The notes under the pieces: model-generated
Told to the model about the DNA's origin: nothing
What the model saw: only the letters and a program-made list of their open reading frames with translations
Databases searched by the model: none
DNA from: Alphaproteobacteria bacterium
Lineage (GTDB): Bacteria > Pseudomonadota > Alphaproteobacteria > Paracaedibacterales > CAIULA01
DNA length: 36,303 nucleotides
Direction of reading: 5' to 3'
Assembly: GCA_947475175.1 (NCBI GenBank)
Contig: CANJLN010000009.1
Location: forward strand, 1-36,303
Part shown: positions 4,701 through 36,303 of the stretch, in pieces
How positions within the stretch are numbered: the stretch's first letter is position 1
Layout of the letters: each line of letters starts with the position of its first letter
Made by a program: the position numbers and the translations under genes

Positions 4701-5648
4701 TTATCCATTATGTGGCAGATTTTTGTCTGCGAAACGCTGCGCTAACCCATACCATGGTTCAACGAAACCTAACAATACTATAATCAGCAGTGGCCAAACA
4801 AGTAAAAACGACATGATCATGATGGTTGCGAACCAAAATCTTTTAGAGTCAGTCTTTTGCACAGCTAAATAGCAAATTCGGAACCCTAAAGCCAGCAAGG
4901 GTAAACATCCCATCAGCATGATTGTTTTGCCAAGAATAGATAAAAGAGGCAAAGGCCAATAATGATGTCCCATAATTAACATCAGACCAAATGTTACAAT
5001 AATGTCCCAATAGGCATGGAAGTGTATATCTTTCGAAGTATCAATAACACGTCTGGAAAGATTCTGTCTGACAAGCAGCTGATACGCAGTCCAAGCATTA
5101 ATAAAACTTGTTGATATCCATGAAATCGTCAAAATGGACGGAAAAATATCGATAAGTTGAGCGATAGCAGTTGGCTGTACACTTGTAAAATTAGAAGGGA
5201 GAGCTTTCTCTAGAAAACTCTCAACTGACTGTCTGACATCAATTCCATAAAAAGATAAACCCAATAGCAAGACAATTAAGGTTAAAAGCAAACACAGGTT
5301 CACTTTGGAGAACACATCTGCGAGTGAATAACGAAAAGCTCCTGCGGCGTTCTCTTTTAACAAGAAATAAGACAAAAGGAGAAAAGGAACATAAGTCATC
5401 ATCAGAAAACCAATGGCGTGGTAGGCTCCACCGAAAAGAGCGAAACTAAAAATTGCAACAGTAGCAGCCCTGATACCAAATTGAAGTCCAAAAGCAAAGC
5501 TTATTAAAAATAAAGGGAGAGCATTAAAGTAGTTCAGAAAAATTCCCAAAATAGGAATTAAGCCAGAAAGAAAGGAAACGGCAAGAACAGTAACCCCAGC
5601 CAGTAAAGACAGAACCGTTGGTGAATAATTTCTAAGTTGCTCTAGCAT
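4701..5648 (-). CDS. DUF2232 multi-span membrane protein
   Basis: A hydrophobic 315-residue protein with about eight predicted membrane segments, beginning within the first 25 residues (LSLLAGVTVLAVSFLSGLIP). Its position between rpsR and rplI is the usual place for DUF2232 (YybS-like) proteins in Alphaproteobacteria, and the family call rests on that synteny plus the membrane profile. Function is unknown. No strong ribosome-binding site precedes the ATG, and a terminator-like hairpin ends only 17 nt upstream, so expression probably relies on readthrough from rpsR. Confidence 0.8.
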   Translation of the reverse strand: MLEQLRNYSPTVLSLLAGVTVLAVSFLSGLIPILGIFLNYFNALPLFLISFAFGLQFGIRAATVAIFSFALFGGAYHAIGFLMMTYVPFLLLSYFLLKENAAGAFRYSLADVFSKVNLCLLLTLIVLLLGLSFYGIDVRQSVESFLEKALPSNFTSVQPTAIAQLIDIFPSILTISWISTSFINAWTAYQLLVRQNLSRRVIDTSKDIHFHAYWDIIVTFGLMLIMGHHYWPLPLLSILGKTIMLMGCLPLLALGFRICYLAVQKTDSKRFWFATIMIMSFLLVWPLLIIVLLGFVEPWYGLAQRFADKNLPHNG

Positions 5649-5665
5649 GTAAAATCAAATGAGAT

Positions 5666-5702
5666 AAAAAAGGTTGGGAAGATTATAACTAATAATCCTC
5701 CC
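5666..5702 (-). terminator. intrinsic terminator or attenuator inside the ribosomal cluster
   Basis: On the minus strand, GGGAGGATTAT pairs with ATAATCTTCCC (11 bp, one G-U pair, loop TAGTT), and a T6 run follows 4 nt later. It begins 16 nt after the rpsR stop and finishes 17 nt before the DUF2232 start. This leaves almost no room for a new promoter, so it may set how much transcription passes from rpsR into DUF2232-rplI. Confidence 0.75.
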
Positions 5703-5718
5703 TTGGAAATCGCTGGGA

Positions 5719-6129
5719 TTAGCCGTTCACGTATGGCATTAAAGCCAAAAAGCGTGCGCGTTTGATCGCTTGCGCGAGTTCACGTTGTTTTTTGAGAGAA
5801 ACAGCACTGATACGACTTGGCATCATTTTACCGCGTTCTGACACAAACTTTGATAGAACCCGAATGTCTTTGTAATCAATTTTCATTCCATTAGGACCTG
5901 AAAATGGACACGTTTTACGACGACGGAAAAATTGACGACGAACAAAAGTCTTTTGTCCATCTGGACCAACGGAGCTATCGCCACCGCGTGAACTATCACC
6001 GCTTGGCCTGGATCCGTATGAACTTGATCCGCCTGAGCTATCGCTGCGTGAACTGGATCCGTGTGAACTTGATCCGCCTGAGCTATCGCTGCGTGAACTG
6101 GATCCGTGTGAATTGCAATCTTGACTCAT
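5719..6129 (-). CDS. rpsR: 30S ribosomal protein bS18 with Ser/Gly-rich N-terminal repeat extension
   Basis: A structural protein of the small subunit platform that pairs with bS6. The conserved core begins near residue 64 ([15 protein letters not shown]) and runs through [15 protein letters not shown] and [22 protein letters not shown] to the end, about 73 residues and thus normal length. In front is an unusual tail of about 60 residues rich in Ser, Gly, Asp and Arg. It has two perfect copies of the 15-residue unit [15 protein letters not shown] (8-22 and 23-37) and a diverged third (38-53). There is no Met between residue 1 and the core. The ATG at 6129 has AGAGTGAG about 10 nt upstream and lies 23 bp after rpsF. 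A start inside the extension at a rare codon cannot be excluded. Confidence 0.95.
5971..6108. repeat. 45-bp tandem repeat within rpsR
   Basis: Two 45-bp units (6064-6108 and 6019-6063), essentially identical in DNA, encode identical 15-residue segments. A third diverged 48-bp unit follows at 5971-6018. The repeat is in frame, so copy-number change would lengthen or shorten the S18 tail without a frameshift. Confidence 0.9.
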
Positions 6130-6152
6130 AATATTTGACTCACTCTTATGTT

Positions 6153-6569
6153 TTATTCTGTTATTTCAGCATCAGGAAGAACAACAAGCGCCTCCCCTTC
6201 TTCTTGACCATCACCAAAATCGCGTTGTTGGAAATCTTCACGATAGTGACGTTGTTGCATGAGCGTAGAAGGATTATTATCTAAGACATCAACACGGATG
6301 CTCAAATAACGCAAAACATCCTCATTTAGCTTCATTTGACGCTCAACTTCGGAGATTCCTTCAGGCGTAACAGCTAAGTTTAATAAAACATAGTGCCCTT
6401 TTTTATTCTTTTTAATGGGGTAAGCCAACGAACGTAAACCACAAAATTCAGTCTTTGTGACTTCGCCGCCGTGTGTTTTAATGACGGACGTATAGTGTTG
6501 GGTCATTGTCTCCACCTGTGCTGATGTTACATCTTGGCGGGCAATAAAAACAGTTTCGTAATATCTCAA
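6153..6569 (-). CDS. rpsF: 30S ribosomal protein bS6
   Basis: A small-subunit platform protein that binds bS18 and 16S rRNA. The sequence shows the bS6 opening [12 protein letters not shown] and the [21 protein letters not shown] motif. I chose the TTG at 6569 because a perfect AAGGAG (6576-6581) sits 6 nt upstream and the product then starts MRYYETV, as in the family. The frame continues upstream to a GTG at 6635, but those 22 residues resemble no S6. The product is 138 residues. It is the first gene of the rpsF-rpsR-DUF2232-rplI cluster. Confidence 0.95.
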
Positions 6570-6775
6570 TTCAAACTCCTTACGGTTGCTAACTTGTGAA
6601 CAAGTCACAGCCCGGAAACTCCGAGCAAGGCGCACTTAATAATTAAGCACTCATCCAGACATATAACGACAATTGTGAAGAAAAATCAAATTATTTTCTT
6701 AAAAAGGGTTTCCTTTTGTTTTTCAAAGACTAGTTTCTTTAGAGTAGAAATATATAAAATCAGCAGAGGTACGTC

Positions 6776-7390
6776 ATGAATAAAAAATTAACACTCGGAG
6801 CTCTTGCGATTGTTTTGTTAATGAGCGCAAGTCCAGTTAATGCTACGTATGATGAAGACTCAGTTTCTGGAAGAGTTGGTCAAGCTTGGCAGTCACTGAA
6901 AGATTTTGTTGTGACTAATTTGGGGCTAGATCCCCTTTTAGACGTGGATCTTAGAGGGAGTCCACGCAAAGTTGAAAGACCCGCCACAACGGCTGCAATG
7001 TTTGCAAATGCGCATTTTGAGGGTATGAGAGTTGAATCTGTTAATGGTATATCATTTATGAGTGAGCTTTTTCCAAGTGACAATAACCTTGAAAATGTTG
7101 TTTCATCTCCACAATATTTAGCCCTACAACAACTCAAAAAGCTAGAACAGGCAGAAGATCTAAGAGGGTTAGGGTTTTACGTTGATATTGATACAAAAGG
7201 AGAAGAAGCTTTGCGAGTTTCATCTATACCTTACTACGGTAGTACTGGTCGAGTTATTGATATGGGAAATAGGAATATCAACCCAGATGATAGTGATGGA
7301 ATGAGTGCTTTACTAGCACAAGCTTCATGTGCACGTACAGATAATCCAAATATCAAAAGATTAGGACTGCTGGTTTCAACGGGAGGCTAA
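6776..7390 (+). CDS. exported protein of unknown function
   Basis: I do not recognise this 204-residue protein. It starts with a clear Sec signal peptide (MNKKLTLGALAIVLLMSASPVNA, cleavage likely after residue 23), so it is probably periplasmic or secreted. No membrane segment follows. The mature part is mixed and fairly acidic (DEDS, DPLLDVD, NINPDDSDG), with a single cysteine near residue 185 and a glycine-rich end. GAGG lies 6 nt before the ATG. It stands alone between the divergent rpsF and the convergent ctrA, with a hairpin after its stop. It could be lineage-specific. Confidence 0.75.
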   Translation: MNKKLTLGALAIVLLMSASPVNATYDEDSVSGRVGQAWQSLKDFVVTNLGLDPLLDVDLRGSPRKVERPATTAAMFANAHFEGMRVESVNGISFMSELFPSDNNLENVVSSPQYLALQQLKKLEQAEDLRGLGFYVDIDTKGEEALRVSSIPYYGSTGRVIDMGNRNINPDDSDGMSALLAQASCARTDNPNIKRLGLLVSTGG

Positions 7391-7415
7391 TAACTCTAGG
7401 TTGCCCAAACAAACT

Positions 7416-7440
7416 CTGTCCTCGGGTTTCCCGAGGGCAG
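7416..7440. terminator. bidirectional hairpin between convergent genes
   Basis: Ctgtcctcggg (7416-7426) pairs with cccgagggcag (7430-7440) around a TTT loop, giving an 11-bp stem with one G-T position. It lies between the ends of the exported protein gene and ctrA. There is no good T-run on either side, so the terminator role is inferred from position and from its CCTCGG/CCGAGG core, which is shared with the other hairpin repeats here. Confidence 0.6.
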
Positions 7441-7464
7441 GACAAAGCAGACCAGAGAGAACGA

Positions 7465-8250
7465 TTACCCCAAACGGTTGATCGTAATGCTATCAGGTCC
7501 TTTGCTTAGGGTTTCAGGGAGCACAGGAAACTGATTTGGGTCAACACTCACAGCAACAACCTCTTGGTTTTCCTCGTCAGGATCACGCAAAACATAACCA
7601 CGCCCCCAAACGGTTTCAATATAATTGTCTTGTCCCAAAGCTTCAGCAATTTTACGGCGAAGTTTACAAATAAACACATCGATAATTTTTAATTCAGGTT
7701 CGTCCATACCACCATACAGGTGATTTAAGAACATTTCTTTTGTAAGCGTTGTTCCCTTGCGCAATGATAACAGCTCTAAAATGGCGTATTCTTTTCCTGT
7801 TAGGTTCAGGGTTTCGCCATCAACACTGGCTGTTCGTTTTTGTAAGTTAACGGAAAGTCGGCCTGTCTTAATCTGTGAGTCTGAGTGACCGCGTGAGCGG
7901 CGAACAATAGCATGCGCTCGCGCCAAAAGTTCAACTTTACTGAAAGGTTTTGTTAAATAATCATCAGCCCCAAAACCAAGCCCCTTAACTTTATCATCCG
8001 TTTCACTCAAGCCTGATAGAACCAAAATAGGCGTCTTAATCTGTGCAGCTCTTAAACGACGTAAAACTTCAAACCCATCAATGTCGGGCAACATTAAATC
8101 CAAGATAATAAGGTCATATTCATACAGTTTACCAATTTCAAGACCATCTTCACCAAGATCGGTTGTATCACAAATAAAACCTTCTGATTTTAGTGTTGAT
8201 TCCAAGCTTTTTGCTGTTGCAGAGTCGTCTTCAATTAATAATACGCGCAT
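7465..8250 (-). CDS. ctrA: cell-cycle response regulator CtrA
   Basis: An OmpR-type DNA-binding response regulator that in Alphaproteobacteria controls cell cycle, division and polar genes through the CckA-ChpT phosphorelay. The receiver domain (1-115) has the acidic pocket ED7-9, phospho-acceptor Asp51 (LIILDLMLP) and the Lys of LTKPF. The winged-helix domain (about 125-230) contains [17 protein letters not shown] and [14 protein letters not shown], typical of CtrA. I used ATG 8250 (MRVLLIEDD) as in known CtrA proteins. A GTG at 8268 with AAGGA 5 nt upstream would add six residues and may be the true start. The C-terminus (ITINRLG) lacks the terminal Ala-Ala that marks Caulobacter CtrA for ClpXP. 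Confidence 0.95.
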
Positions 8251-34587: not shown

Positions 34588-36138
34588 TTACCTTCGATAT
34601 ATCATCTTTTTAATTACAAGAACAACTAAACCAAGCGAGCCCAGGCCGAATAATGTGTCGCCAAAAGCACGCATCCAAATAAACATGTGCACTATTGGTT
34701 GCGAAGTAAAATGTTCAGAACGTGCATACCACATGTCATGTGTAATACTTGTCCAAGCCTGATATAAACCAACAGGTAATAAGCTAAAGAAACACATACT
34801 TGCAATGCCCACATTCAAAAGCCAGAACACCCACGAAACAAGCTTCTCATCGCGAATAATATTTTTCTTGTTGATAAAAGAATTCATACAAAAAAGGAGT
34901 AACCCGATTGACAGATTTCCATATACACCGTAAAGAGCTGCGTGAGCATGTAAAGGTGTTGTGTTTAAACCTTGAACATGATAGAGAGCTGATGGCATAT
35001 TGATTAAAAATCCAAACAAACCTGCGCCTACTAAATTCCAGAAACTTACAGCAATAAAGAAGTAAATTGGCCATTTATAGATTGCAACCCAAGGAGAGGA
35101 TTTACTAATTTCATAATTATGATACGCCTCAAAACCCATTAAGGTTAAAGGAACGACCTCTAAAGCACTAAAAATACCGCCTAATATGATAACTGTTTGT
35201 GGCGTGGCTGTGAAATACAGATGATGAAAGAGACCTATAATTCCACCAAAAGCATAGATACTGGTTGCTAACAAAACAGTTTTTGTCGCTTTATGACGAT
35301 CAAGCAATCCTAAATTAACAAATAAGAATGCAACAGCGGTCGTGGTGAAAATCTCAAATATTCCTTCGACCCAAAGGTGGACAACCCACCAACGCCAATA
35401 TTCTACAATAGCAAGATTGGTATGCTCTCCCCACATAAACCCAGCACCGTAAAAAGCAGTAATTGTAAAAACAGCAATGCAAAAGAGGAAAAGCAAACTC
35501 CTGTTCTGCGTCTTATTTCTTAGAGCTGGCATCATGGCACGAACCATTAGAATTAACCAAACACAAAGACCAACCATTAAAAATGATTGCCAAAAACGAC
35601 CCAAGTCAACATATTGATACCCTTGATGTCCAAACCAGAAATTCATTTTTAATGAAAGGAACTGCTGAATTCCAAACCATTCACCAGTCATCGACCCTAA
35701 AACAATAATAACCAGGCATACCCACAGAAAATTAACCCCCCATCTTTGATATGGTGGCTCGTATCCTGAGATCATGGGTGCTAAATAAAGACCTGTGCCG
35801 AGAAGAGCCGTTGCAATCCAAAATAATGCCAATTGAACATGCCAGGTTCTTGAAACTGAGTATGGCAGAATTTCTCCTGTTCTAATACCAAAAAAAGCAT
35901 TGCCCTCAACTGTATAATGGGCGGTTATTACTCCAAACACTACTTGTAACAGAAGCAATAATGCAACAATGAGAAAGTATTTCTTTGTCGCAATCATCGA
36001 AGGGGTTGGAGCTTGAAAAACAGGCTCTTTTTGTATGGTTATGCCCTGATGCCCTGACTTTAGATGAACTGCGTAATACCAAACCATAACACCAATCGCT
36101 GCCAGGAGAAGCACAACACTCATGATTGATGACATCAA
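34588..36138 (-). CDS. norB: nitric oxide reductase large subunit (qNOR type), 5'-truncated
   Basis: A heme-copper-family membrane enzyme reducing NO to N2O. The 12-segment catalytic core is intact: TWHVQLALFW (heme ligand), EYWRWWVVHLWVEGIFE (FeB His and Glu), LFHHLYF (FeB His pair) and THAHAAL-like LHAHAALYGVYG. Full qNOR proteins are about 750 residues, with an N-terminal segment and a periplasmic domain of about 240 residues; here the ORF begins where that domain would end. Codons upstream to about 36157 still read like qNOR (NTAPPVLLM), then a stop appears in what looks like IS sequence. It is probably a pseudogene, but a shortened product from TTG 36138 or ATG 36135 cannot be excluded. 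Confidence 0.8.
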   Translation of the reverse strand: MMSSIMSVVLLLAAIGVMVWYYAVHLKSGHQGITIQKEPVFQAPTPSMIATKKYFLIVALLLLLQVVFGVITAHYTVEGNAFFGIRTGEILPYSVSRTWHVQLALFWIATALLGTGLYLAPMISGYEPPYQRWGVNFLWVCLVIIVLGSMTGEWFGIQQFLSLKMNFWFGHQGYQYVDLGRFWQSFLMVGLCVWLILMVRAMMPALRNKTQNRSLLFLFCIAVFTITAFYGAGFMWGEHTNLAIVEYWRWWVVHLWVEGIFEIFTTTAVAFLFVNLGLLDRHKATKTVLLATSIYAFGGIIGLFHHLYFTATPQTVIILGGIFSALEVVPLTLMGFEAYHNYEISKSSPWVAIYKWPIYFFIAVSFWNLVGAGLFGFLINMPSALYHVQGLNTTPLHAHAALYGVYGNLSIGLLLFCMNSFINKKNIIRDEKLVSWVFWLLNVGIASMCFFSLLPVGLYQAWTSITHDMWYARSEHFTSQPIVHMFIWMRAFGDTLFGLGSLGLVVLVIKKMIYRR

Positions 36139-36162
36139 AAGAACAGGTGGGGCTGTATTAAC

Positions 36163-36303
36163 GCGAGTTCGGGATTAGAAGTGAGTATTTGCAAAGGGTA
36201 GAGGGATGTTTTAGTTATAATTTTAGAGAAAAACAACAAAACAGATCCCTCTAATGAAAAAAGATATCACAGAATTGTTTACGTTTGTCGACGATTTTTT
36301 TAA
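36163..36303 (+). mobile_element. left end of an insertion sequence
   Basis: The NO reductase homology stops near 36160. About 90 bp of AT-rich sequence follows, then the start of a transposase-like ORF at 36254, running off the window. The element end is estimated at about 36160-36175 (near acgcgagttcgggattag). The terminal inverted repeat cannot be confirmed because the other end is outside the window. Confidence 0.55.
36254..36303 (+). CDS. transposase, N-terminal fragment (IS982-like)
   Basis: Only 16 residues are visible, MKKDITELFTFVDDFF, open at the window edge. The pattern (I-T-E-L-F-x-F-V-D-D-F) resembles the start of IS982-family transposases. The fragment is short, so the family is tentative. 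No strong ribosome-binding site is seen. Confidence 0.5.
   Translation, partial: MKKDITELFTFVDDFF

Follow-up and report, generated by a model that had tools for sequence, protein, structure and literature searches.

A qNOR-type nitric oxide reductase gene broken by an IS982-family insertion sequence in an alphaproteobacterium

Nitric oxide (NO) reductases of the qNOR type (NorB/NorZ; PDB entries 6qq5, 6fwf, and 3ayf) unite a cytochrome c-like domain (Pfam NorB_cytochrome_c-like, PF22085) and a COX1-like catalytic core (PF00115), and the solved representatives are uninterrupted. The same holds for a 753-residue qNOR from G003, a genome of the same family as the one studied here, in which domain and core are fused in one chain. 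NorB of cNOR shares distant homology with the core only. Here, we analyzed a window of 36,303 nucleotides, which is the whole of contig C9 of an alphaproteobacterial genome (G000; 1.57 Mb, 66 contigs). The original prediction for this window described a qNOR-type gene cut at its 5' end by an insertion sequence (IS), reflecting either loss of NO detoxification by transposition or a trimmed core resembling the shorter NorB. We are highly confident that a copy of a multicopy IS982-family element simply inserted into this gene, leaving a split and most likely null allele, with the link between the two halves through the IS being deduced.

Two parts of one gene on two contigs

The C-terminal part of the split gene lies at positions 34588 to 36160 on the minus strand and begins at the equivalent of Ala221/Asn222 in the intact gene, from where it runs to the stop codon, comprising transmembrane (TM) helix II and the catalytic COX1-like core. 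Its longest start-to-stop frame (34588 to 36138, minus strand; 516 amino acids) begins with TTG, part of a TTG/ATG start pair at 36138. This frame aligns to residues 231 to 741 of solved qNORs with an E value of about 1e-159, compared to only 7e-30 for NorB of cNOR, and covers positions 3 to 435 of the 436 of Pfam COX1, which bears out the predicted intact core: it is complete and open. Upstream of the TTG start, qNOR-like reading continues to 36160, where the IS begins; such a continuation had been anticipated, with the boundary placed three bases off at about 36157. The C-terminal part contains neither the N-terminal signal-anchor helix nor the periplasmic domain. It is flanked by ksgA on one side and by the IS on the other, and no norC was found among these neighbors in the window.

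Residues 1 to 229 of the G003 qNOR served as the query for the missing half in the same genome and gave a single match, at positions 121 to 789 of contig C46 (minus strand), 76% identical over G003 residues 1 to 223. The N-terminal part spans positions 97 to 789 of C46 on the minus strand and contributes 221 qNOR residues to a frame of 230 amino acids, which ends in IS sequence. It matches PF22085 with an E value of 2e-68 and adjoins a hydrolase gene and leuS. Its gene-strand sequence ends ...SNWPSEQLIAN and then enters the second IS terminus, ACCCTAGTTCGGGATTAG. The predicted N-terminal product would consist of the signal-anchor helix and the periplasmic domain, followed by 8 to 9 residues read from the IS. 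Thus, the N-terminal residues expected to be missing are indeed absent from the window, but they number 221 rather than about 240 and are still present in the genome, where they border the same IS at its opposite end, as a search beyond the element had been expected to reveal.

The junctions fit together precisely. On the N-terminal side, the sequence reads ...CTGATTGC TAATA followed by the IS; on the C-terminal side, the IS is followed by TAATA CAGCCCC.... This TAATA, at positions 36156 to 36160 (minus strand) and again at the junction on C46, provides the target-site duplication whose presence had been proposed as a check. Translation up to the N-side junction gives ...L I A N, and translation from the C-side junction opens with N T A P P, while the intact G003 gene reads ...L I G N T A P P..., with N as residue 222. 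Joining the N-terminal part, the duplication, and the C-terminal part yields a sequence in frame with the G003 gene, with no residue gained or lost. The TAATA match carries little weight by itself, since this is the commonest target of the element (7 of 11 right ends); the weight lies on frame and homology. In the proposed sequence of events, the IS would have entered a single-gene qNOR of about 753 residues at codon 221/222, a point that lies after the periplasmic cytochrome c-like domain and ahead of TM helix II, and the insertion would have duplicated the 5-bp target TAATA.

The IS982-family element and its other insertions

The right end of the element occupies positions 36161 to 36303 (143 bases, plus strand), where it is cut by the contig end, and comprises the terminal inverted repeat ACGCGAGTTCGGGATTAG (36161 to 36178, plus strand) as well as the 16 opening codons of the transposase gene, which start at about 36255 on the plus strand and read away from the qNOR remnant. 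About 120 bases of the IS precede the junction on C46, and the two termini form inverted repeats identical at 16 of 18 positions. The stretch from 36156 to 36303 has ten further copies in the genome with 99 to 100% identity, all of them at contig ends, in agreement with the IS-like sequence foreseen at the 5' end of the gene. The flanks of the copies diverge beyond CTAATCCCGAACTCGCGT, and therefore the IS terminus was set at 36161. Given this identity of the copies over the compared end and the absence of stop codons from both gene halves, the insertion was probably recent.

The protein start encoded from about 36255, MKKDITELFTFVDDFF, also begins a complete 292-residue protein in the same-genus genome G001, inside a full copy of the element (L123) that is about 975 bp long according to its coordinates and that at its right end shares 94% identity with the IS end in the window. 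The G001 transposase scores 263.7 bits against the IS982 model NF033520 (cut-off, 130) and 230.6 bits against DDE_Tnp_1_3. The transposase C-terminal ends in the genome under study match NF033520 below the cut-off because they are cut short.

At least five further genes appear to be split by the same element, with matching 5-bp duplications: an SSB-like gene (C39 and C7; L115/L010), confirmed by Pfam, and, by our own reading of the sequence, genes for a CheY-like receiver (C41 and C15; L121/L008) and a histidine kinase (C2 and C56; L116/L007), an enoyl-CoA-hydratase-like gene (C12 and C29; L117/L011), and an adaptor-protein-like gene (C8 and C43; L118/L012). A second, intact SSB gene is located on C13. 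The rare duplications TAGTA, TAAAA, and TATCA each pair one left end with one right end, whereas TATTA occurs at one right end and two left ends. Since rare duplications pair and the type of gene on one flank of a pair resumes on the other, gene splitting by insertion with a 5-bp duplication is the normal behavior of the element in this genome, which calibrates the inference of its insertion into the qNOR gene.

Two further repeats were observed on C9. Positions 1 to 135, at its left end, belong to another multicopy repeat, different from the IS982 element and found at about 10 other places, mostly contig ends, with 96 to 100% identity. Within positions 186 to 220 lies a sequence of about 30 bases that is scattered over more than 40 places in the genome, often as pairs in opposite orientation 50 to 250 bases apart, resembling a palindromic intergenic repeat.

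Relatives and competing explanations

A search of 95 other genomes with the remnant identified four matches: G003 (frame of 763 codons), G030 from the same order (761 codons), G077 from the same class (816 codons), and G083, also from the same class, with a NorB-like frame of 477 codons that is only 29% identical. The proposed comparison with relatives thus yielded a full-length 753-residue qNOR in the same family, to which the C-terminal part is 89% and the N-terminal part 76% identical. The gene was detected in one of seven other genomes of the family, which indicates a patchy distribution, and the same-genus genome G001 gave no match to the remnant. The silent sites of both halves are saturated relative to G003 and are unusable for dating or for comparing dN/dS between the halves. 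In a phylogenetic tree, the two qNORs are sisters (support, 100/100) on a long stem without a close donor and with long branches meeting, and for these reasons we make no statement on transfer of the gene.

Among 82 related loci with a measurable frame, 80 have frames of at least 716 codons, and none has a natural 516-residue form. The two shorter frames, L050 and L043, were considered as natural trimmed cores and rejected; the former lies at a contig edge, and the latter has its N-terminal part directly upstream behind a stop codon. L043, from a Bacteroidota metagenome-assembled genome, is of interest in its own right: in this qNOR, the cytochrome c-like domain is immediately followed by a stop, which leaves segments at 5300 to 5983 and 6016 to 7542 with no IS between them. 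The break lies close to the position of the one in the window and is either natural or due to a sequencing error.

That the remnant functions as a trimmed, NorB-like core without NorC, expressed from a promoter inside it or in the IS end, is very improbable. The complete and open catalytic core and the start pair would permit it; however, apart from the NorB-like G083 frame, such a form is absent from all relatives examined, and we found no promoter-like match near the start of the 516-residue frame and no sigma-70-like promoter reading out of the IS end. In addition, the window has no NorC gene next to the remnant, the transposase gene faces away from it, and the IS fully accounts for the break. 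Equally slim are the chances that the cell still produces the 516-residue core, without its periplasmic domain, and that this core retains some activity as an NO reductase or another oxidoreductase. The trimmed-core branch of the original prediction hence appears unlikely, while transposition as the cause is upheld by both gene halves, both IS ends, their common TAATA, and in-frame collinearity with G003.

Simple insertion would leave one IS copy still joining the halves on C46 and C9, as we infer, with neither the interior of the IS nor the physical connection itself present in the assembly. An assembly artifact, in which wrongly joined repeat ends conceal an intact gene, might be suspected because both halves stop at contig ends, but it is extremely improbable: the junctions lie well inside the contigs, at exact IS termini, a misjoin would not be expected to create a duplication, and the same pattern recurs at several other split genes. 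A rather less remote, though still unlikely, scenario is that the IS split the gene and later recombination between IS copies moved the halves apart on the chromosome, leaving the gene broken all the same. Their different neighborhoods are compatible with this, as leuS lies about 120 kb from ksgA in G005, but gene order is poorly conserved in the family, so that this distance says little, and the common duplication fits simple insertion. Relatives' gene order was also considered as a test of C46-C9 adjacency and rejected, as the surroundings of ksgA and leuS vary and the qNOR gene of G003 sits at yet another place.

Consequences and comparison with known systems

The C-terminal part is most likely a null allele, considering that its product would lack the signal-anchor helix and the periplasmic domain and that transcription of the transposase gene leads in the other direction. 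Judging from known qNOR structures and the break in the gene, NO reduction is very probably abolished. The gene state was read from the assembly, in which a subpopulation with an intact gene would not appear. No second NO reductase was found in the assembly; the only other COX1-family gene, on C13, is a stronger COX1 match and was missed by the qNOR query. Of the predicted loss of NO detoxification, the gene break is established, and the loss itself is its probable consequence. The strain is probably devoid of qNOR-based NO detoxification, in which case its annotation as NO reducing would be wrong. The locus cleanly documents transposition-driven loss of a patchily distributed gene, the only copy of which in this small genome is broken.

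No published case linking an NO reductase gene and IS982 was recognized in titles and abstracts. The case amounts to commonplace gene inactivation by an IS, documented at both ends, with no new mechanism involved. The element shares with the IS982 family a transposase far above the model cut-off in the G001 copy, the DDE_Tnp_1_3 domain, and 18-bp inverted repeats, and differs in nothing notable; its duplications measure 5 bp in the genome under study, and that of the G001 copy is apparently 6 bp long. From NorB of cNOR, the remnant differs in its far greater closeness to qNOR, in having no norC adjoining in the window, and in being a fragment. With qNOR, the two halves jointly share both domains in collinear order, and the core has qNOR sequence; in contrast to the solved enzymes and the G003 gene, the cytochrome c-like domain is severed from the core by the IS at codon 221/222. 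As far as can be read from its sequence, the locus is a broken qNOR gene and not a working qNOR.
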